Of a stretch of 36,120 nt of DNA, positions 12,232 through 34,570 are shown in pieces. The DNA lies in contig DATHJB010000181.1 in NCBI GenBank assembly GCA_035316325.1, forward strand, positions 1 to 36,120. Reading direction: 5' to 3'. The position numbers were made by a program, and so were the translations under genes. The DNA comes from Acidimicrobiales bacterium. GTDB lineage: Bacteria > Actinomycetota > Acidimicrobiia > Acidimicrobiales > VFJN01. The notes beneath the pieces are model-generated. The model was not told where the DNA came from. It did not search any database and was given only the letters and a program-made list of their open reading frames with translations. Positions within the stretch are counted from its first letter, which is position 1; each line of letters opens with the position of its first letter.

Positions 12232-12738
12232 CTAGGCCCCGGGGTCGGTCGACTTCTCCTTGGGCACCTTCGCGGGGGCGGGGACGTGGTGGGCGTCGGT
12301 CCAGTGGTGGCCGTTGCCGCCGAGCACCCAGGTCGACGCCTTGGGCCAGGTCAGCTGGTGGTGGAAGGTGGTGCCCTCGATGCGCAGCTCCGACAGCAGG
12401 TCGGGGATCACGTCGCCGTGGCTGCACAGGGCGGCGACGTCGCCGAGCGCCTGCAGCTCGCCGGCCAGCGCCAGGGCTGCCGGGCCGTCGCTGCCCTCCC
12501 GCAGCCGGGCGTCGGTCTCGACGGGGAGCCCGAGCGCCGCGCCCAGTGGCTCCAGCGTCTCGACGCAGCGGGTGGACGGGCTCGACACCAGCCGGGTCAG
12601 GCCCGCGTCGGCGAGCCGGGCGGCGATCCCGTTGGCCTGGCGGCGGCCCTTCTTGCTGAGCGGTCGGAGGTCGTCGTCGCCCGACCAGGCGCTGCGACTA
12701 CCCGCGTCGGCGTGGCGGATGAGGTAGAGCGTCGACAT
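12232..12738 (-). CDS. SixA-like histidine phosphatase
   Basis: A 168-residue protein of the histidine phosphatase superfamily. The phosphoacceptor motif is LYLIRHADAG at the N-terminus (RHA rather than RHG, as in SixA). The second half has LCSHGDVIPDLL, which supplies the second catalytic His. SSPSTRCVET is the usual substrate-pocket segment. SixA removes phosphate from phosphohistidine; other members act on small molecules. The ATG at 12738 shares one base with the stop of the upstream cysteine desulfurase gene (TGATG). The link to sulfur or Fe-S metabolism is only positional. Confidence 0.85.
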   Translation of the reverse strand: MSTLYLIRHADAGSRSAWSGDDDLRPLSKKGRRQANGIAARLADAGLTRLVSSPSTRCVETLEPLGAALGLPVETDARLREGSDGPAALALAGELQALGDVAALCSHGDVIPDLLSELRIEGTTFHHQLTWPKASTWVLGGNGHHWTDAHHVPAPAKVPKEKSTDPGA

Positions 12739-13859
12739 CACGCCGATGATGTCAGGGCACGCAACTCGGCGACGACCCGGGGCAGGGCGTCGAGCAGGCG
12801 GTCGACGTCGGCGCCGGCGGACGACCACCCCGTGGAGAGCCGCAGGCTGTGGTGGGCGTCGACGCCCATGGCCGCCAGCACCGGCGACGGCTCCAGCCCC
12901 TCCGAGGCGCAGGCGCTGCCGGAGTGGGCGGCGATGCCGTACCGGTCGAGGCCGAGGAGCACCGCCTGGGGCTCGATCCCCTCGACGCCGAGGCAGACCA
13001 GATGGGGGAGCCGTCGCTCGTCGTCGGGCGATCCGTAGAGGGTCAGTCCCTCGGGGAGCGACGCGAGGATGCGGGTGGAGAGGCGGCGTTGATCGTCGGC
13101 TTCGGCATCGAGGCGGCCGGGCGCGGCCAGCTCGGCGCAGGCGGCGCCGAAGCCCACCAGCCCGGGGACGTTCTCGGCCCCCGCCCGGCGGGCCCGCTCC
13201 TGGTCACCGCCCACCAGCAGCGGTCGGAGCCGCAGGCCCCGGCGGATGAGCAGCGCGCCGACGCCCGGCGGCCCGCCCAGCTTGTGGGCGCTCACCGACA
13301 GCAGGTCGATGCCGAGGCCCCGGAAGTCGATCGGCACGCGGCCGGCGGCCTGGGCGGCGTCGACGTGCACCAGCACGCCGCGCTCGCGGCACGCGGCGGC
13401 CACCTCGGCGACCGGCTGCAGGGTGCCGACCTCGTGGTTGCCCCACTGGAGGTGCACGACCGCGGTGTCGGGGCGGACGGCGGCGAGCACGGCGTCGGGG
13501 TCGGTCCGGCCGGTGGCGTCGGGGGCGACGGACGTGACGTCGCCGTGGCGCTCGGCCGCCAGTCGCACCGCCGAGTGCTCGACGGCCGGCACCACCTGGT
13601 GGGCACCCCGCTCGGCGGCGCCCCAGCAGGCGGCGGCGATCGCCTCGGTCGCCCCGCTGGTGAAGCACACCTCGCGGTTGCGGGCGCCCAGCAGCTCCGC
13701 CACTTGAGTGCGGGCCTGCTCGACGGCGTAGCGGGCCGCCAGCCCCTCGGCGTGGATGCGGCCGGGATCGCCCACCCGGTCGAGCCACTCGACCATCGCG
13801 GCCCGGGCCGCCGGCCGCAGCGGCGACGTCGAGGCGTGGTCGAGGTAGACCCTGCGCAC
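12738..13859 (-). CDS. Cysteine desulfurase (NifS/IscS class V aminotransferase)
   Basis: A 373-residue PLP enzyme. The PLP Lys is K193 in SVSAHKLGGPPG, the Asp that binds the ring is D167 in VDAAQA, the stacking His is H95, and the persulfide Cys is C317 in HSGSACAS. These are the class I (NifS/IscS) signatures, and the short active-site loop fits that class. It takes sulfur from cysteine to supply Fe-S clusters or tRNA thiolation. It starts with GTG at 13859, six bases after the SufR-like regulator gene. Regulator, desulfurase and the divergent Mrp ATPase form a plausible Fe-S assembly locus. Confidence 0.92.
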   Translation of the reverse strand: MRRVYLDHASTSPLRPAARAAMVEWLDRVGDPGRIHAEGLAARYAVEQARTQVAELLGARNREVCFTSGATEAIAAACWGAAERGAHQVVPAVEHSAVRLAAERHGDVTSVAPDATGRTDPDAVLAAVRPDTAVVHLQWGNHEVGTLQPVAEVAAACRERGVLVHVDAAQAAGRVPIDFRGLGIDLLSVSAHKLGGPPGVGALLIRRGLRLRPLLVGGDQERARRAGAENVPGLVGFGAACAELAAPGRLDAEADDQRRLSTRILASLPEGLTLYGSPDDERRLPHLVCLGVEGIEPQAVLLGLDRYGIAAHSGSACASEGLEPSPVLAAMGVDAHHSLRLSTGWSSAGADVDRLLDALPRVVAELRALTSSA

Positions 13860-26115: not shown

Positions 26116-26901
26116 ATGACCGCCATGAACGTGGTCGTGTGCGTGAAGCAGATCCCGGACCCTGCGGAGCCCGGGAAGCTCGAGGCCGACAACACCCTCG
26201 ACCGGAGCGGCAAGCTCATCCTCGACGAGTCCGACAGCTACGGCGTCGAGATGGCCCTCCAGTTGGTGGACGCGGCAGGCGGCGGCGAGGTCACCCTCGT
26301 CTCCATGGCCCCCGGTGGGGAGACCTCGGGTCTGCGCACCGCTCTGGCCATGGGTGCTGCCAAGGCGATCCTGGTGTCGGACGACGCCCTCTCGGGGGCC
26401 GGCGCGCTGGACACCGCCAAGGTGCTGGCCGCGGCCATCAAGCGGGCCGAGCCCGAGCTGGTGATCGCCGCCACCGAGTCGAGCGACGGCTACACCGGCA
26501 CCGTGCCCGAGCAGGTCGCGGCGCTGTTGGGCCTGCCGTCGATCACCTTCGCCAAGAACGTCGAGATCGTGGACGGCACCGTCAAGGTCCAGCGGCAGAC
26601 CGAGCTGGGTTACGACGAGGTCGAGGCGCCGCTGCCGGCGCTGGTCTCCGTGACCGCCGGCGTGGTCGAGCCCCGCTACCCCTCGTTCAAGGGGATCATG
26701 GCGGCGAAGTCGAAGCCGGTCGACCAGCCGACGCTCGCCGACCTCGGCATCGACCCGTCCTCCGTCGGTGCCGCCGGCGCCGGCCAGGAGATCGTCGCCG
26801 TCGACGACGCCCCCGCCCGTGAGGCCGGTGAGCTGGTCGAGGACGACGGCGAGGCCTACCAGCGTGTCGTGTCCTTCCTCGAGGACCTCAAGGTCATCTG
26901 A
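26116..26901 (+). CDS. etfB: Electron transfer flavoprotein beta subunit
   Basis: A 261-residue EtfB. It starts NVVVCVKQIPDP, the AMP-binding N-terminus, and contains EMALQLVDA and AATESSDGYTGTVPEQVAALLGLP, the family signature region (about 117-140). EtfAB takes electrons from acyl-CoA dehydrogenases and passes them to the membrane quinone oxidoreductase. Two ATGs are possible, 26116 and 26125; neither has a clear Shine-Dalgarno. etfA follows 20 bp later. Confidence 0.94.
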   Translation: MTAMNVVVCVKQIPDPAEPGKLEADNTLDRSGKLILDESDSYGVEMALQLVDAAGGGEVTLVSMAPGGETSGLRTALAMGAAKAILVSDDALSGAGALDTAKVLAAAIKRAEPELVIAATESSDGYTGTVPEQVAALLGLPSITFAKNVEIVDGTVKVQRQTELGYDEVEAPLPALVSVTAGVVEPRYPSFKGIMAAKSKPVDQPTLADLGIDPSSVGAAGAGQEIVAVDDAPAREAGELVEDDGEAYQRVVSFLEDLKVI

Positions 26902-26921
26902 GACCCAGGAGCAGAAGAACC

Positions 26922-27881
26922 ATGACTCTCAACCGCATCTGGGTCTTCGCCGAGGCCGCCGACGGCAAGGTCGCACCCATCACCCTCGAGATGCTCGCCA
27001 AGGCCCGTGAGCTGGGCGGCACCGTCGAGGCCGTGCACGGCGGCGCTGACGCCGACGCCATCGCCGCCGACCTGGGCGCCCACGGCGCCACCAAGGTGTA
27101 CGCCACCGGCGACCTGGGCGGCAGCCTGTCGGGCGTGCCGGTCGCCTCGGCCATCGCCGCGCAGGTCTCGGGCGGCAACGCCCCCGACCTGATCATGTTC
27201 GGCACCACCTACGACGGCCGCGACGTCGCCGGCCGCCTGTCGGTGGCGCTCGACAAGCCGGTGCTCACCAACAACGTCGACGTGGCGCTCGACGGCGACG
27301 CCCTCGTGGTCACCGAGCCGATCTTCGGTGGCACCAAGCTGGTGCGCTCGCGGTTCACGGTCGACGGGCCGCACATCGCCCTGTTCCGGCCCAAGTCGTT
27401 CACCGCCGAGGCGTCGGGCGGCGGGGCCGCGGCCGTCGAGACCATCGACGTGCCCGAGCCCGGTTCCGCCAAGGTCACCAACCGCCACGTCGAGGAGTCG
27501 TCGGGCCCGAAGCTCGACGAGGCCGACATCGTGGTGTCGGGCGGCCGGGGCCTGGGCGAGGCCGACAAGTACGCCATCATCGAGGAGCTGGCGAGCCTGC
27601 TGAAGGCCGCGCCGGGCGCCTCCCGGGCCATCGTCGACGCCGGCTGGGTGCCCTACAGCTACCAGGTCGGCCAGACCGGCAAGGTGGTGAAGCCCACCGT
27701 CTACATCGCCGCCGGCATCTCGGGTGCCACGCAGCACCTGGTCGGCATGAAGGGCTCGAAGAACATCATCGCGATCAACAAGGACCCCGAGGCCCCCATC
27801 TTCTCGGTGGCCGACCTCGGCATCGTGGGCGACGTCCACAAGGTCCTCCCCAAGCTGGTCGAAGCCCTCAAGTCCCGCTGA
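26922..27881 (+). CDS. etfA: Electron transfer flavoprotein alpha subunit
   Basis: A 319-residue EtfA. The C-terminal FAD-binding domain carries [38 protein letters not shown] and [11 protein letters not shown] (about 205-295), all hallmark stretches. The N-terminal half pairs with EtfB. The ATG at 26922 has AGGAG about nine bases upstream. It ends where the GrpB-family frame begins to read. Confidence 0.95.
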
Positions 27882-29587: not shown

Positions 29588-30937
29588 ATGCGCACTGGGA
29601 CGCGCGGGAGTTGGACGAACTGGGGCGGGAACCAGGCCTGCGCCCCTGTCGCGTCCGCCCGTCCCTCGACCGAGGACGAGCTGGTCCAGACGGTGAAGGA
29701 CGCGGCCACCCTGGATCGGCGCGTGAAGGTGGTCGGTGCCGGCCACTCGTTCACCGCGATCGCCTGCACGGACGGCGTCATGGTCGATCTCTCCGACTAC
29801 GGCCGGGTCCTGGGCCACGACGCCGAGCGCCGGACGGTCACCGTCGAAGCCGGCATCCCGCTGCACCGCCTGAGCCGGGAGCTCGACGCCCGGGGCCTCG
29901 CTCTGCAGAACATGGGCGACATCGACCGCCAGACGATCGCCGGCGCCACCCAGACGGCCACGCACGGCACCGGGCTGCGCTTCGGGAACCTGTCGTCGCA
30001 GATCGTCGGGCTGCGGCTCGTCACCGCCGACGGATCGGTGATCGACTGCTCACCCACCCACGAGGCCGAGGTCTTCGACTCCGCCCGCGTCGGGCTCGGG
30101 GCGCTCGGCGTGCTGTCCACCGTCACGCTGCAGTGCGAGCCGGCGTTCCGGTTGCACGCCGTGGAGGAGCCCCGCCGGGTCGACGAGGTGCTCGCCGAGC
30201 TCGACGAGCTGGTGGAGGGCAACGACCACTTCGAGTTCTTCTGGGTCCCCCACACCGGCTGGGCGCTCACCAAGCGCAACCAGCGCACCGACGAGCCGGC
30301 GCAACCCCGGTCACGTCGCAAGGAGTGGATCGACGACGTGCTCGTCACCAACGTGCTGTTCGGCGCCGCCTGCCGGGTGGGACGCTGGCGGCCGTCGCTG
30401 GTGCCGCGGGTCGCCAAGCTCGTCCCGAGCAGCGGTCGCGTCGAGTACACCGACCGCTCCGACAAGGTCTTCACCAGCCCCCGGTACGTGCACTTCCTGG
30501 AGATGGAGTACGCCATCCCGCGGGAGGCCGTCCCCGAGGCCCTCAACCGGGTCCGTGCCCTGGTCGACCAGCTCGGCATGCAGCTGAGCTTCCCCGTCGA
30601 GGTGCGCATGACGGCCGGTGACGAGATCCCGCTCTCGACGGCGCACGGCCGCGAGACTGGCTACGTAGCCGTGCACGTCTACAGAGGTACGCCATTCGAC
30701 GCTTATTTCACGGGCGTCGAGGGAATCATGGACACCTACGGCGGGCGGCCGCATTGGGGAAAGATGCACTTCCAAAGTCACGAAACGCTGGCCCCGCGCT
30801 ATCCCGCTTGGGATCGCTTCCAGACGGTGCGCGCCCGGCTCGATCCCACCGGACGCTTCGCCAACCCGTACCTCGACCGTGTGCTCGGCCCAGCCGCCAG
30901 TGCCGCCACCGGTCCGGCCTCAGCAGGAGTTGCTTGA
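29588..30937 (+). CDS. FAD-linked sugar-1,4-lactone oxidase (D-arabinono/L-gulono type)
   Basis: A 449-residue protein of the vanillyl-alcohol-oxidase superfamily. The FAD domain has RRVKVVGAGHSFTAIACTDG (about 44-63), with the His that may hold FAD covalently, and GATQTATHGTG. The C-terminal ALO domain ends with the active-site HWGKMH (389-394) and DPTGRFANPYL. Relatives oxidise aldonolactones to ascorbate-like products, with O2 or another acceptor. Codon use between about 30660 and 30800 is less GC-biased than in the rest of the gene. The EAL gene starts one base after its stop. Confidence 0.9.
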   Translation: MRTGTRGSWTNWGGNQACAPVASARPSTEDELVQTVKDAATLDRRVKVVGAGHSFTAIACTDGVMVDLSDYGRVLGHDAERRTVTVEAGIPLHRLSRELDARGLALQNMGDIDRQTIAGATQTATHGTGLRFGNLSSQIVGLRLVTADGSVIDCSPTHEAEVFDSARVGLGALGVLSTVTLQCEPAFRLHAVEEPRRVDEVLAELDELVEGNDHFEFFWVPHTGWALTKRNQRTDEPAQPRSRRKEWIDDVLVTNVLFGAACRVGRWRPSLVPRVAKLVPSSGRVEYTDRSDKVFTSPRYVHFLEMEYAIPREAVPEALNRVRALVDQLGMQLSFPVEVRMTAGDEIPLSTAHGRETGYVAVHVYRGTPFDAYFTGVEGIMDTYGGRPHWGKMHFQSHETLAPRYPAWDRFQTVRARLDPTGRFANPYLDRVLGPAASAATGPASAGVA

Positions 30938-30938
30938 C

Positions 30939-31874
30939 GTGGCTGCTCTCATCGTGCACGGTGCGGACGGCGGCAGTCCTCCGTCTGGGAGCCTCATGAA
31001 CGGCGAACGCACCGTCCGCAAGCTCGGGACCGAGCTGTGGACGGCGATCGGTGGCGGCGACATCGATGTCTGCTACCAGCCCAAGGTCGAGATGGCCACG
31101 GGCATAGTCCGTGGTGCGGAGGCGCTCGTGCGCTGGTACCACCCGCGCCTGGGACGGGTGCGGCCGTCGAAGCTCGTGCAGGTGGCCGAGCGCACCGGGG
31201 CCATCCGGCCGCTGACCATGTGGGTGATGCAGCACGCCCTGGCCGAGTGCAAGGGCTGGCGTGACCACGGCTGGGACCTGGGCGTCGCCGTGAACCTCTC
31301 GGCGCGGAACCTGGTCGACCGGCGCCTGGCCACCGACGTGGCCCGGCTGCTCGACGAGCTGGGCGTGCCCGCCGCGTCGCTCACCCTGGAGATCACCGAG
31401 ACGATGGTGGTCGGCGAGTCGCAGCGGTCGCTCGACGTGGTGCAGTCGCTGGTGGAGCTGGGCGTGAAGATCTCCTGCGACGACTTCGGCACCGGCTACG
31501 CGTCGCTGGCCCGGCTGCGGCGGCTGCCGATCAACGAGATCAAGGTCGACCGGTCGTTCGTCGCCCGCATGGCCGACGACGACACGGACCGGGCCATCAC
31601 CCGCTCGGTGCTGGCGCTGGGCCGGGGCCTGGGGCTGACCACGGTCGCCGAGGGCGTCGAGGACCAGGGCGGCTGGGACATCCTGCGGGCCTTCGGATGT
31701 GACCAGGCGCAGGGCTTCCTCGTGAGCCGGCCGCTCGCCGCGTCACGGTTCCGGGAGTGGATGACCCGCCAGCCGGCGTCGGCCCGCCCGGCGTTCTCGT
31801 CGTCGAGCCCACTGACCGCCCGCTCGATCGGGGCCGCCCAGGCGTCCCCGCTGCAGACCAGCGGCCAGAGTTAG
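30939..31874 (+). CDS. EAL-domain protein, probable c-di-GMP phosphodiesterase
   Basis: A 311-residue protein that is almost entirely one EAL domain. The active-site set is visible: E61-A-L63 in GAEALVRW, N119 in AVNLSARN, E151 in LEITE, DDFGTG (181-186), K202 and D204 in IKVDRSF, and E238 and E241 in VAEGVE. All metal- and substrate-binding residues are kept, so hydrolysis of c-di-GMP is likely. No sensory domain is fused, and the C-terminus is Ser/Ala-rich. I chose GTG 30939, nine bases after AGGAG; ATG 30996 is an alternative with GGGAG before it. Confidence 0.9.
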   Translation: MAALIVHGADGGSPPSGSLMNGERTVRKLGTELWTAIGGGDIDVCYQPKVEMATGIVRGAEALVRWYHPRLGRVRPSKLVQVAERTGAIRPLTMWVMQHALAECKGWRDHGWDLGVAVNLSARNLVDRRLATDVARLLDELGVPAASLTLEITETMVVGESQRSLDVVQSLVELGVKISCDDFGTGYASLARLRRLPINEIKVDRSFVARMADDDTDRAITRSVLALGRGLGLTTVAEGVEDQGGWDILRAFGCDQAQGFLVSRPLAASRFREWMTRQPASARPAFSSSSPLTARSIGAAQASPLQTSGQS

Positions 31875-31950: not shown

Positions 31951-32700
31951 TCAGACGAGGGGCCAGGGGTAGGCGCGGCCGCTGCCGTCGATCGGGAAGC
32001 GGCTGCGGTCGTCGGCCACGTGGCGGGCACGGCGCAGGAGGGCATCCCGCTCGTCGGGGTCGAGGAGGGCGCACAGGTCGTCGGGGAGGCCCTGGTCGAC
32101 CAGCCGGGCGGCGTCGGCCCGGAGGTGGTCGGGGATCGCCTCGCCGCCGAACTCCCAGATCACCGTGCGTAGCTTCGGCTCGACGTGGAACGACAGGGCG
32201 TTGTCGACCGCCCAGATACGCCCGCCCTCCAGGGCCAGCAGGCAGTGGCCGCTCTTGCGGTCGGTCTGGTTGGCGAGCAGGTCGAAGCAGCAGATCGTGC
32301 GCAGCTGCGGGTGGTGGGCGTCGTCCTCGTAGAGGCTGAAGTAGTGCTCCTCGGTCTGGAAGGGCACGAAGCGCTGCAGCGAGCCGACGCCGTAGGGCAG
32401 GTCGTCGCGCAGCACGGTCTCCGGGACGATGCCCCAGCCCAGCGCCTCCGACAGCTGGTAGGCCGCGACCTCGCGCTTGTCGAGGCCGGCGGGGAAGTCC
32501 CACAGCGGCCGCTCGCCCCGGCGGGGCTTGTAGACCGCCTGGATCGACCCGCCCTCGCCGCCGCCGCCCTCGCGCTCGGCGCTCTCGCTGTCGCCCCCAC
32601 CGCACACCTGAGCGAGCAGCGTCGCGTTCGATCCCCACGGCATCCGCCCCAGCACCTCGACCTGCCCCCGGCGGAGGAGATTCAGTTCATCCGTGGGCAC
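31951..32700 (-). CDS. SCO1664-family protein, PI3/4-kinase- or HipA-like fold
   Basis: A 249-residue protein of a conserved actinobacterial family. It carries kinase-like signatures: K58 in AVYKPRRGE, E77 in DKREVAAYQL, CCFDLLANQTDRKSGHCL (138-155) resembling the catalytic loop of HipA and PI3/4 kinases, and AVDNALSF (D166), the metal-binding position. The substrate is unknown. An acidic/Gly-rich insert (about 34-52) separates the first strands. I chose GTG 32700, giving a 19-bp overlap with the DUF3090 gene. In mycobacteria the equivalent genes are Rv2133c-Rv2135c, near mshC; no mycothiol gene is visible here. Confidence 0.85.
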   Translation of the reverse strand: MPTDELNLLRRGQVEVLGRMPWGSNATLLAQVCGGGDSESAEREGGGGEGGSIQAVYKPRRGERPLWDFPAGLDKREVAAYQLSEALGWGIVPETVLRDDLPYGVGSLQRFVPFQTEEHYFSLYEDDAHHPQLRTICCFDLLANQTDRKSGHCLLALEGGRIWAVDNALSFHVEPKLRTVIWEFGGEAIPDHLRADAARLVDQGLPDDLCALLDPDERDALLRRARHVADDRSRFPIDGSGRAYPWPLV

Positions 32701-33158
32701 ACGTGTCCCTCGTCGCCCGCGGGGCGGCCGCAGAACTGGCAGTCGGGGCGTCCCCTGCCGACGAGCTCGAGCGCGTAGTCGGCGAACGCCGCGGCCTGGG
32801 CGCAGCTGAACGAGAAGCGGGCCGTGGCGGGCTTGTCCTCGTCGGTCAGCTCCTCGAGGACGACCACGATGCGGTCCTCGGGCTCGTCGTAGGCGACGCC
32901 GATGGCGCCGATCGTCCACTTGAAGGGAAGGGCCGCCAGGTCGCCGTGGCCGTCGGCCGGCTTCACGTCGGGGGTGAGGTCGTCGAGCAGCGCCCGCAGG
33001 TACTCGCCCAGCGCTGCGACCTGCTGCTTCTCGCACTTCAGGAAGGCCAGCTCACCGCCCGAACCGCCCACCAGGAAGAAGACCCGCTGGCCGGGGTCGC
33101 CCTCGGCTCCCGGCCAGAACACCTCGGCTTCGGGGAACTCGAAGGAATCGTCGCTCAT
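32682..33158 (-). CDS. DUF3090 family protein with C-terminal zinc-binding-like cysteines
   Basis: A 158-residue protein matching the DUF3090 family. The N-terminal part is GDPGQRVFFLVGGSGGELAF. At the C-terminus are C140, C143, H152 and C154 in DCQFCGRPAGDEGHVCPRMN, which could bind zinc. The function is unknown. It sits between the kinase-like gene (19 bp overlap) and the histidine phosphatase gene (32 bp upstream), the fixed order in actinobacteria, which argues for a shared pathway or complex. The ATG at 33158 fits the family start, though this member is shorter than the roughly 190 residues of some relatives. Confidence 0.88.
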   Translation of the reverse strand: MSDDSFEFPEAEVFWPGAEGDPGQRVFFLVGGSGGELAFLKCEKQQVAALGEYLRALLDDLTPDVKPADGHGDLAALPFKWTIGAIGVAYDEPEDRIVVVLEELTDEDKPATARFSFSCAQAAAFADYALELVGRGRPDCQFCGRPAGDEGHVCPRMN

Positions 33159-33190
33159 GTGGGTCTCGGTCGGTTCGTCGGTGTCGTCGG

Positions 33191-33862
33191 CTACTGCGGG
33201 ATCAGAGCGCGGGAGTCGTCGGTGGAGTTGACCGTGAGCACGGTAGGGCCGTCGTCGCCCAGCGCCACGGCGGTCAACGAGCATGGTGACACGACGATGC
33301 GCTGGAAGAGGTCGAGGTGGGTGCCCAGGGCATGGGCCACGGCGACGCGGATCGGGTCGGCGTGCGACACCGCCACCACGACCTCGCCCGGGTGGTCGGC
33401 CCGCAGCTTCTCGAGCGTGGCGACCATGCGGGCCTGCATCTCCAGGAACGACTCGCCGCCGGGGAAGCGGAAGGAGCTCGGGTAGCGCTGGATGGTCCGC
33501 CACTCGGGCTTCTTGCGGGCGGCGGCGAGGGTCAGCCCGGTCCACTCGCCCATGTCGACCTCCAGGAGGCCCTGCTCGATCTTCACCTCGACGTCGAGCC
33601 CGTCGGCGATCGGCGCGGCCGTCTCCCGGGTGCGCTCCAGCGGCGAGGCGTAGACGGCCGTGACCTTGCGCTTGTCGTCCTGCAGCGCGGCGATGCGGGC
33701 GGCCGCGGCCTTGGCCTGCTGCTGGCCGGCGTCGGAGAGGTGGAGGCCCGACGCCCGACCCGGCAGCTCCTTGCCCGTCGTGGCGGTCGTCCCGTGGCGG
33801 ACGAGCACGACCAACGTCGGTGGCGTGGCGCGTCGTCGCGCCCCAGTCCGGGACAGTGCCAT
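33191..33862 (-). CDS. Histidine phosphatase (phosphoglycerate-mutase-like, MSMEG_4193 family)
   Basis: A 223-residue histidine phosphatase. The catalytic motif is VVLVRHGTTATTG (RHG at 22-24), with SPLERTRETA as the second Arg region, LLEVDMGEWTG supplying the acidic residue, and VVAVSHADPIR giving the second His. It is the first gene of the trio with DUF3090 and the SCO1664-like protein. A phosphatase and a kinase-like protein in one fixed operon suggest opposing actions on a common phosphorylated target; that is inference. It is divergent from the uracil-DNA glycosylase gene, 27 bp apart. Confidence 0.88.
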   Translation of the reverse strand: MALSRTGARRRATPPTLVVLVRHGTTATTGKELPGRASGLHLSDAGQQQAKAAAARIAALQDDKRKVTAVYASPLERTRETAAPIADGLDVEVKIEQGLLEVDMGEWTGLTLAAARKKPEWRTIQRYPSSFRFPGGESFLEMQARMVATLEKLRADHPGEVVVAVSHADPIRVAVAHALGTHLDLFQRIVVSPCSLTAVALGDDGPTVLTVNSTDDSRALIPQ

Positions 33863-33889: not shown

Positions 33890-34570
33890 GTGGACTCACT
33901 CGCCGAACTCGCAGATGACGTGGTCGGGTGCCGCGCCTGTCCCCGGTTGGTGGCGTGGCGGGAGCAGGTGGGTCGGGAGAAGCGGGCGGCGTTCCGTGAC
34001 GACGACTACTGGGCGCGGCCGGTGCCGGGCTTCGGCGACCCCGCGGCCCGGGTGGCGCTCGTCGGGCTGGCGCCGGCCGCGCACGGGGCCAACCGCACCG
34101 GGCGGATGTTCACCGGCGACCGTTCCGGCGAGTTCCTCTACGCCGCCCTGTGGCGCACGGGGTTCGCCAACCAGCCGACGTCGGTGGCGCGGGACGACGG
34201 GCTGGCGCTGACGGGGGCCTGGATCACCGCCCCGGTGCGGTGCGCGCCGCCGGCGAACAAACCGACGCCGGCGGAGCGCGATCAGTGCCGGCCGTTCCTC
34301 GACCGGGAGCTGGCGCTGCTGCCATCGCTGCGGGTCTTCGTTCCGCTGGGGCAGTTCGGCTTCCAGGTGCTGTGCGACCTGCTGGGCGTCCGACTCCGTC
34401 CCCGGTTCGGCCACGGGGTGGTGGTTCCGCTGGCCGACGGGCGCCACATCGTCGCCAGCTTCCACGTCAGCCAGCAGAACACGTTCACCGGTCGGCTGAC
34501 CGAGCCGATGCTCGACGAGGTGCTGCTGCGGGCCCGATCCCTGGCTGCCTTACCCCCGGTGGAGTCGTAG
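33890..34570 (+). CDS. Family 5 uracil-DNA glycosylase (UdgB-type, Fe-S)
   Basis: A 226-residue glycosylase. Four cysteines for a 4Fe-4S cluster are C14, C17, C118 and C133. Motif A is GLAPAAHGANRTGRMFTGD (59-77), in which the usual catalytic Asp or Asn is Ala, the mark of family 5 (UDGb). Motif B is HVSQQNT (192-198). Such enzymes remove uracil and some deaminated purines from DNA and rely on other residues for catalysis. I chose GTG at 33890, which gives the expected N-terminus; the frame remains open upstream antisense to the phosphatase gene. Confidence 0.9.
   Translation: MDSLAELADDVVGCRACPRLVAWREQVGREKRAAFRDDDYWARPVPGFGDPAARVALVGLAPAAHGANRTGRMFTGDRSGEFLYAALWRTGFANQPTSVARDDGLALTGAWITAPVRCAPPANKPTPAERDQCRPFLDRELALLPSLRVFVPLGQFGFQVLCDLLGVRLRPRFGHGVVVPLADGRHIVASFHVSQQNTFTGRLTEPMLDEVLLRARSLAALPPVES

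Follow-up and report, generated by a model that had tools for sequence, protein, structure and literature searches.

Three adjacent genes, encoding a histidine phosphatase, a DUF3090 protein and a kinase-like protein of the SCO1664 family, are already catalogued, together with their linkage, as the families TIGR03848 (MSMEG_4193), TIGR03847 (DUF3090) and TIGR03843 (SCO1664), with function unassigned in the catalogues. They reappear in a contig of an Acidimicrobiales bacterium, in a stretch of 36,120 nucleotides that was analysed whole and is called the window here, and the question raised by this locus is what such a set does and whether it belongs to mycothiol metabolism. We put at about even the chance that the three genes constitute a self-contained reversible-phosphorylation module, in which kinase and phosphatase would act on one substrate and DUF3090 would be an accessory. 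Literature searches on locus tags returned only a study of the phosphatase and passing mentions, and the predicted PI4KII/Fam20 assignment, the predicted PUR-like fold, the patterns of loss and the independence of genomic context emerged from the present analysis and are absent from the literature searched.

Gene order and co-occurrence of the trio

The genes of the window are members or close relatives of the three families in the usual order, and a preliminary description of the sequence, which presented them as coupled, was exact in its coordinates: 32 bp (33159-33190) separate the phosphatase and DUF3090 genes, and 19 bp (32682-32700) are shared by the DUF3090 and SCO1664-like genes (Table 1). 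Unlike the usual loci, the trio of the window does not lie beside mshC, a gene that is absent from the window, as had been described. On one side the trio is bordered by a divergent uracil-DNA glycosylase gene (33890-34570) and on the other by a convergent EAL-domain gene (30879-31874), so that it stands alone in this genome. Elsewhere in the window, genes for electron-transfer flavoprotein (ETF) beta and alpha are located at 26116-27881, 4-6 kb from the trio, and a second ORF with a histidine-phosphatase domain, at 12232-13859, shares sequence with the end of a cysteine-desulfurase-like gene.

Table 1. Positions of the three genes and of their conserved motifs in the window
Feature	Position	Strand	Basis
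Histidine phosphatase, TIGR03848 / MSMEG_4193 family, 223 aa, first gene of the set	33191..33862	-	ORF and family match
Phosphatase RHG catalytic motif, residues 22-24	33791..33799	-	sequence and conservation
DUF3090 protein, 158 aa, predicted PUR-alpha-like fold	32682..33158	-	ORF, family match, model
DUF3090 CxxC...HxC tail (C140, C143, H152, C154), zinc-knuckle-like, overlapping the kinase gene start	32697..32741	-	conservation
SCO1664-family (TIGR03843) protein, 249 aa, GTG start, predicted PI4KII/Fam20-type kinase	31951..32700	-	ORF, family match, model
K58 (counted from the start codon), putative ATP-binding Lys in YKP motif	32527..32529	-	99% conserved, n=116
Putative catalytic loop D147-R-K-S-G-H152 of the SCO1664-family protein	32245..32262	-	alignment and conservation
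D166, putative metal-binding Asp, DFG-like position	32203..32205	-	100% conserved

The distribution of the trio was followed in a phylum sample of 149 genomes (64 with the trio and 85 without it), where agreement between genome sets is confounded by ancestry, and in a sample of 116 loci that includes 80 relatives from labelled genomes. The class names of sampled genomes are read from kinship and genome size, except for the relatives of the window, which carry Acidimicrobiia labels. The kinase gene and DUF3090 are present in the identical set of 64 of the 149 genomes, and the phosphatase is present in all 64 as well as in six others with weaker matches. The order phosphatase-DUF3090-kinase on one strand, previously described as fixed across actinobacteria, was recovered in 108 of the 116 loci; of the eight exceptions, seven are cut by the end of the locus and one, L075, is without DUF3090. 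Because order and strand are kept in so many loci and the kinase and DUF3090 genome sets are identical, the linkage of the trio is far beyond chance. The kinase gene is single-copy in nearly all genomes.

The neighbours of the trio vary by class, being mshC and uppP in Actinomycetes and electron-transfer flavoprotein in Acidimicrobiia, with ETF alpha as the most frequent neighbour among related loci (53/110). In family f8 (L142:2466-6314, L133:420-4161), the phosphatase gene shares 4 bp with an acetate--CoA-ligase-like gene, which extends the trio to an operon of four genes, and upstream of this operon there is an exopolyphosphatase-like sequence. Only the trio itself is constant across these contexts. 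Close relatives of the trio also occur under Rokubacteria or Acidobacteria labels at five loci (L001, L006, L008, L009, L012), where the labels are probably misassigned, with transfer as a possible explanation.

Predicted folds and conserved residues

The SCO1664-family protein matches TIGR03843 with 219.4 bits (cut-off 172.4) over the entire profile (1-253 of 253), while a Pfam search placed no model above its cut-off and left the PI3/PI4-kinase model unmatched at E <= 1. Sequence searches of the PDB with the single kinase or DUF3090 protein likewise returned nothing meaningful. The structure prediction that the preliminary description had proposed was run for the kinase-like protein, and the AlphaFold2 model (pLDDT 89, pTM 0.89, 72 homologues in the input) strongly supports the kinase-like character claimed for it, returning what is predicted to be a complete PI4KII/Fam20-type kinase fold. 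The best PDB match is PI4KII, with Foldseek E values down to 6e-8 and 18-20% identity; the VIA alignment to PI4KIIbeta covers 221 residues at 3.2 Å with Z 20.1, and weaker VIA matches are Fam20 (Z about 15-16), CtkA (14), HipT (12) and HipA (11). In a profile search with sequence only, FAM20A was the top match (E 0.015), followed by PI4K2B (E 0.03), with the KP and NTDR motifs aligned. The whole catalytic domain thus superposes on PI4KII alpha/beta (Z 20, 3.2 Å), and the Lys, the NTDR loop and the metal Asp correspond, whereas the SCO1664 family differs from PI4KII in its smaller size (about 250 aa), its prokaryotic occurrence, a His in place of Asn and the lack of a Pfam PI3/PI4-kinase match. 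The likeness to Fam20 lies in the fold and in the N-lobe KP...E motifs detected by profile search, although Fam20 has Glu where His is found here.

Of the two possibilities named at the outset, a PI3/4-kinase or a HipA-like kinase, the former is favoured through the PI4KII/Fam20 likeness, while HipA is more distant (Z 11 vs 20). HipA and HipT belong to the same kinase superfamily and share a DxxxxN-type catalytic loop, but they match with Z 10-12 only, and the SCO1664 family is a conserved core-genome gene without an antitoxin partner. No HipB/HipS-type antitoxin gene was found at the locus, where the neighbours are the phosphatase and DUF3090, and a HipA-type toxin was accordingly ruled out by this absence together with the weaker structural match.

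Across 116 homologues, K58, E77, D147, H152 and D166 are conserved in 99-100%, and the catalytic-loop motif NxTDRKxGH is conserved as well. The residues listed in the preliminary description (Lys, Glu, loop and Asp) are therefore all present, with the qualification that His stands where PI4KII has Asn. In the alignment, His152 falls on the PI4KII Asn (NTDRGNDN) and on the Fam20 Glu (DRHHYE); it is invariant in the SCO1664 family, which lacks both the PI4KII-type Asn metal ligand and the Fam20-type Glu. His152 is thus a mark peculiar to this family, and it leaves kinase activity plausible but not certain.

The identity of the first gene product as a histidine phosphatase is borne out by its family scores, namely 207.3 bits to TIGR03848 (cut-off 203.85) and 173.3 bits to the Pfam model for branch 1 of the histidine phosphatase superfamily, and by the RHG...Arg...Glu...His set, in which R22-H23-G24, R77, E101 and H167 are conserved in 93-100% of 106 homologues. 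Enzymes of this branch act mostly on small molecules. The purified M. tuberculosis homologue Rv2135c is a weak acid phosphatase without phosphoglycerate mutase activity; the Km values for the compounds that it hydrolysed were about 8-14 mM, and the substrate panel included no inositol phosphate (PMC3866925). Since activity was poor with each of these compounds, the real substrate may be another one.

The DUF3090 protein scores 96.8 bits against Pfam PF11290 (gathering cut-off 27) and, in a further departure from the usual loci, 102 bits against NCBIfam TIGR03847, below its cut-off of 117.25; by these scores it is a divergent relative of TIGR03847. The best match of its model (pLDDT 87) is PUR-alpha repeats I-II, a moderate one (Z 9.4, 110 of 158 residues, 3.2 Å) with a Foldseek E of only 6e-4, and the next VIA matches are Whirly and MRP1/2 at Z of about 5-6. 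A Pfam search placed only DUF3090 above threshold, leaving the PurA family unmatched. The zinc-like Cys/His tail had been correctly recognised: C140, C143, H152 and C154 are present and conserved in 98-99% of 112 homologues, and these four residues likely form a zinc site. The same motif in DUF3090 was noted in PMC9425974. The role of adaptor that was suggested for this protein is one that we only infer, and its predicted fold recalls the nucleic-acid-binding domains of PUR-alpha.

DUF3090 is the most dispensable part of the trio. It has no match in the control genome of C. glutamicum, where kinase and phosphatase both match; it is missing between phosphatase and kinase at locus L075; and genome G008 carries, beside a full trio, a second phosphatase-kinase pair without it (L130:3892-5266, contig C17, 1-bp gap). 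From these three cases, phosphatase and kinase emerge as the core.

Relation to mshC and mycothiol synthesis

An earlier paper, PMC4255298, drew attention to the close linkage of SCO1664 and mshC. In the sampled Actinomycetes with both genes on one contig, the kinase gene lies less than 300 bp from mshC in 28/36 and less than 2 kb away in 33/36, the usual distance being 15-225 bp, so that this gene of the mycothiol operon is the immediate kinase-gene neighbour in most members of the class, while it is absent from the window and from many genomes with the trio. In a mycobacterium-like genome the fuller order is uppP-phosphatase-DUF3090-kinase-(inositol-monophosphatase-like gene)-mshC, the family of the bracketed gene having been recognised by eye from a sequence motif. 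In three genomes some 550 kb separate the trio from mshC, and both are retained.

Losses are also shared within this class. Eight of 138 Actinomycetes genomes are kinase-less, and seven of these (family f75, G168, G266) are also without mshC, a co-loss with a Fisher p of 6e-9, not corrected for ancestry. Kinase-bearing genomes without an mshC match number three; they belong to one family and are fragmented assemblies, with the kinase near a contig end in at least two. The remaining kinase-less genome, G206 (L137:5605-9002, contig C16), shows the order uppP-phosphatase-DUF3090-mshC, the kinase gene having dropped out cleanly from its place before mshC; since phosphatase, DUF3090 and mshC are all kept there, the phosphatase can be of use to a genome that has no kinase.

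Beyond this class the association is not general. In at least 27 genomes with the trio (families f8, f13, f14, f16, f43), the search for MshC gave a single match, at CysS level, and thus no homologue of MshC other than CysS, and this rules out an essential link to MshC. The mycothiol link raised in the preliminary description thus holds in class Actinomycetes, through adjacency to mshC and co-loss, and fails as a general rule; the co-occurrence with mycothiol genes, which it proposed to check, likewise extends to MshC in that class and not phylum-wide. Present without an MshC homologue and beside other genes, the trio is a separate module kept by mycothiol makers and not part of the mycothiol enzyme set by definition.

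All 11 trio-bearing Acidimicrobiia, including the genome of the window, have an MshC-like second protein, and G044 and G055 have neither this protein nor the trio. In the genome of the window, the MshC-like gene (L128:3251-5121, contig C36) scores 426 bits for MshC, below the cut-off, and 354 for CysS, above the cut-off. It adjoins the npdG (F420 reductase) gene on the downstream side, and a PIP-synthase-like gene lies on the same contig about 18 kb away, compared with 4-8 kb in several other Acidimicrobiia.

At phylum level the trio agrees more closely with the MshA step than with MshC, with strong MshA-like proteins in 58/64 genomes with the trio and 2/85 others, an agreement confounded by ancestry: PafA agrees equally well, and the two are told apart only by the comparison within class Actinomycetes. 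PafA, the Pup ligase/Dop correlate, is found in 64/64 genomes with the trio and only 4 others; it was rejected as a functional link, since 11/11 genomes of family f66, in class Actinomycetes, have lost it and keep trio and mshC, which marks the agreement as shared ancestry. These f66 genomes (G166, G180, G192, G203 and others), without PafA/Dop, are streamlined to 1.2-2.2 Mb. Two further candidates were set aside: PIP synthase, present in 64/64 genomes with the trio (one weakly) but also in 42/85 others, is not specific to the trio, and inositol-phosphate synthase (PF07994) does not agree with it and is uninformative, as most genomes of the mycobacterium-like family were missed by the search. 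The genomes of family f14 (G037, G048, G059, G070, G081, G092) exceed the MshA cut-off, whereas CysS is their only MshC homologue, which may point to a different cysteine ligase or to a different inositol glycoside as product. The genome of the window contains two full-length PafA matches (C88:33407-34756, C239:10797-12146) and one Dop-like match, the two PafA matches reflecting duplication or a mixed assembly.

A possible phosphorylation module and its alternatives

In the module that we propose, the SCO1664-family protein would bind ATP and a divalent metal and transfer phosphate, in the manner of PI4KII or Fam20, to one dedicated substrate, from which the histidine phosphatase would remove it through a phosphohistidine intermediate. 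DUF3090, with its PUR-like domain and zinc tail, would bring in the substrate or hold the complex and could be lost. In Actinomycetes, where the module would be run together with mshC, its substrate would for that reason probably belong to low-molecular-weight-thiol or inositol-glycoside metabolism, while other classes would keep it in other contexts. We infer the action of kinase and phosphatase on one substrate from their constant pairing. The eukaryotic PFKFB and PPIP5K each fuse, in a single chain, a kinase and a histidine phosphatase that work on the same metabolite; their kinase folds are unrelated, and the trio would resemble them in principle only, by analogy. Against the module stand the substitution of His for the metal-binding Asn, the kinase loss of G206, the poor activity of Rv2135c on all that it hydrolysed and the agreement of genome sets across the phylum, which is confounded by ancestry.

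The first two of these points bear on the nature of the kinase-like protein itself. It could be a pseudokinase or ATP-binding scaffold, leaving the phosphatase as the sole enzyme of a regulated complex, as the substituted metal ligand, the pseudokinase FAM20A as top sequence match and the retention of the phosphatase in G206 would suggest; we nevertheless consider this distinctly unlikely, given that the Lys, the Glu and both Asp residues (catalytic and metal) show 99-100% conservation (n=116), which is unusual for a pseudokinase, and that a Glu at the position equivalent to His152 leaves Fam20C active. An unlikely reading is a HipA-like protein kinase that acts on MshC, CysS or another enzyme and is reversed by the phosphatase, providing a regulatory switch instead of a metabolic step. 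The fold is common to the protein kinases HipA, HipT, CtkA and Fam20, the gene occurs in single copy in nearly all genomes, and its neighbour mshC encodes a relative of cysteinyl-tRNA synthetase; PI4KII is, however, clearly the better structural match (Z 20 vs 11), the branch's phosphatases are mostly small-molecule enzymes, and the trio is found without MshC beside unrelated genes. Highly improbable, in our view, is an action on RNA or DNA, in which DUF3090 would use its PUR-like fold and zinc tail to bind nucleic acid, and the kinase and phosphatase would act on nucleic acid ends or bound proteins: the matches of the DUF3090 model (PUR-alpha at Z 9.4, Whirly, MRP1/2) are all nucleic-acid binders, but the Z is moderate, the Foldseek E value modest and the PurA family unmatched by sequence, and DUF3090 is dispensable while kinase and phosphatase stay.

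The remaining alternative assigns a metabolic step to the phosphatase, namely that of an inositol-phosphate phosphatase, either MshA2 (GlcNAc-Ins-P to GlcNAc-Ins) or the PIP phosphatase or both, with the kinase acting on the same inositol moiety or regulating the step. The MshA2 step is named without a gene locus in the mycothiol literature searched, and the PIP phosphatase is called yet-unidentified in PMC6506517. Consistent with this assignment are the position of the set within the mshC operon in most Actinomycetes, the predicted kinase fold, closest to an inositol-lipid kinase, and the tracking of MshA, also in genomes over the MshA cut-off without MshC, since the step would come just after MshA. 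It is opposed by the equal agreement of PafA and the confounding of phylum-level agreement by ancestry, by MshA-like proteins in G044 and G055 and an MshC-like protein in G039, all without the trio, by PIP-synthase-like proteins in 42/85 genomes lacking the trio, and by the mycobacterial inositol-monophosphatase-family gene between kinase and mshC, a competing candidate. On balance, this assignment is unlikely. Its most ambitious form, in which the SCO1664 family would be a widespread bacterial PI4KII/Fam20 branch acting on an inositol compound, the phosphatase the missing MshA2/PIP phosphatase, and the trio a control of the inositol phosphate pool for mycothiol and phosphatidylinositol, is very unlikely.

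In mycobacteria and streptomycetes, and in small actinobacterial genomes that are streamlined, the genes of the trio belong to the core and have long been listed as hypothetical. A predicted PI4KII/Fam20-type kinase unseen by Pfam, its phosphatase and, in Actinomycetes, their tie to mshC provide a concrete test for the MshA2/PIP phosphatase steps or for a new switch in thiol metabolism.
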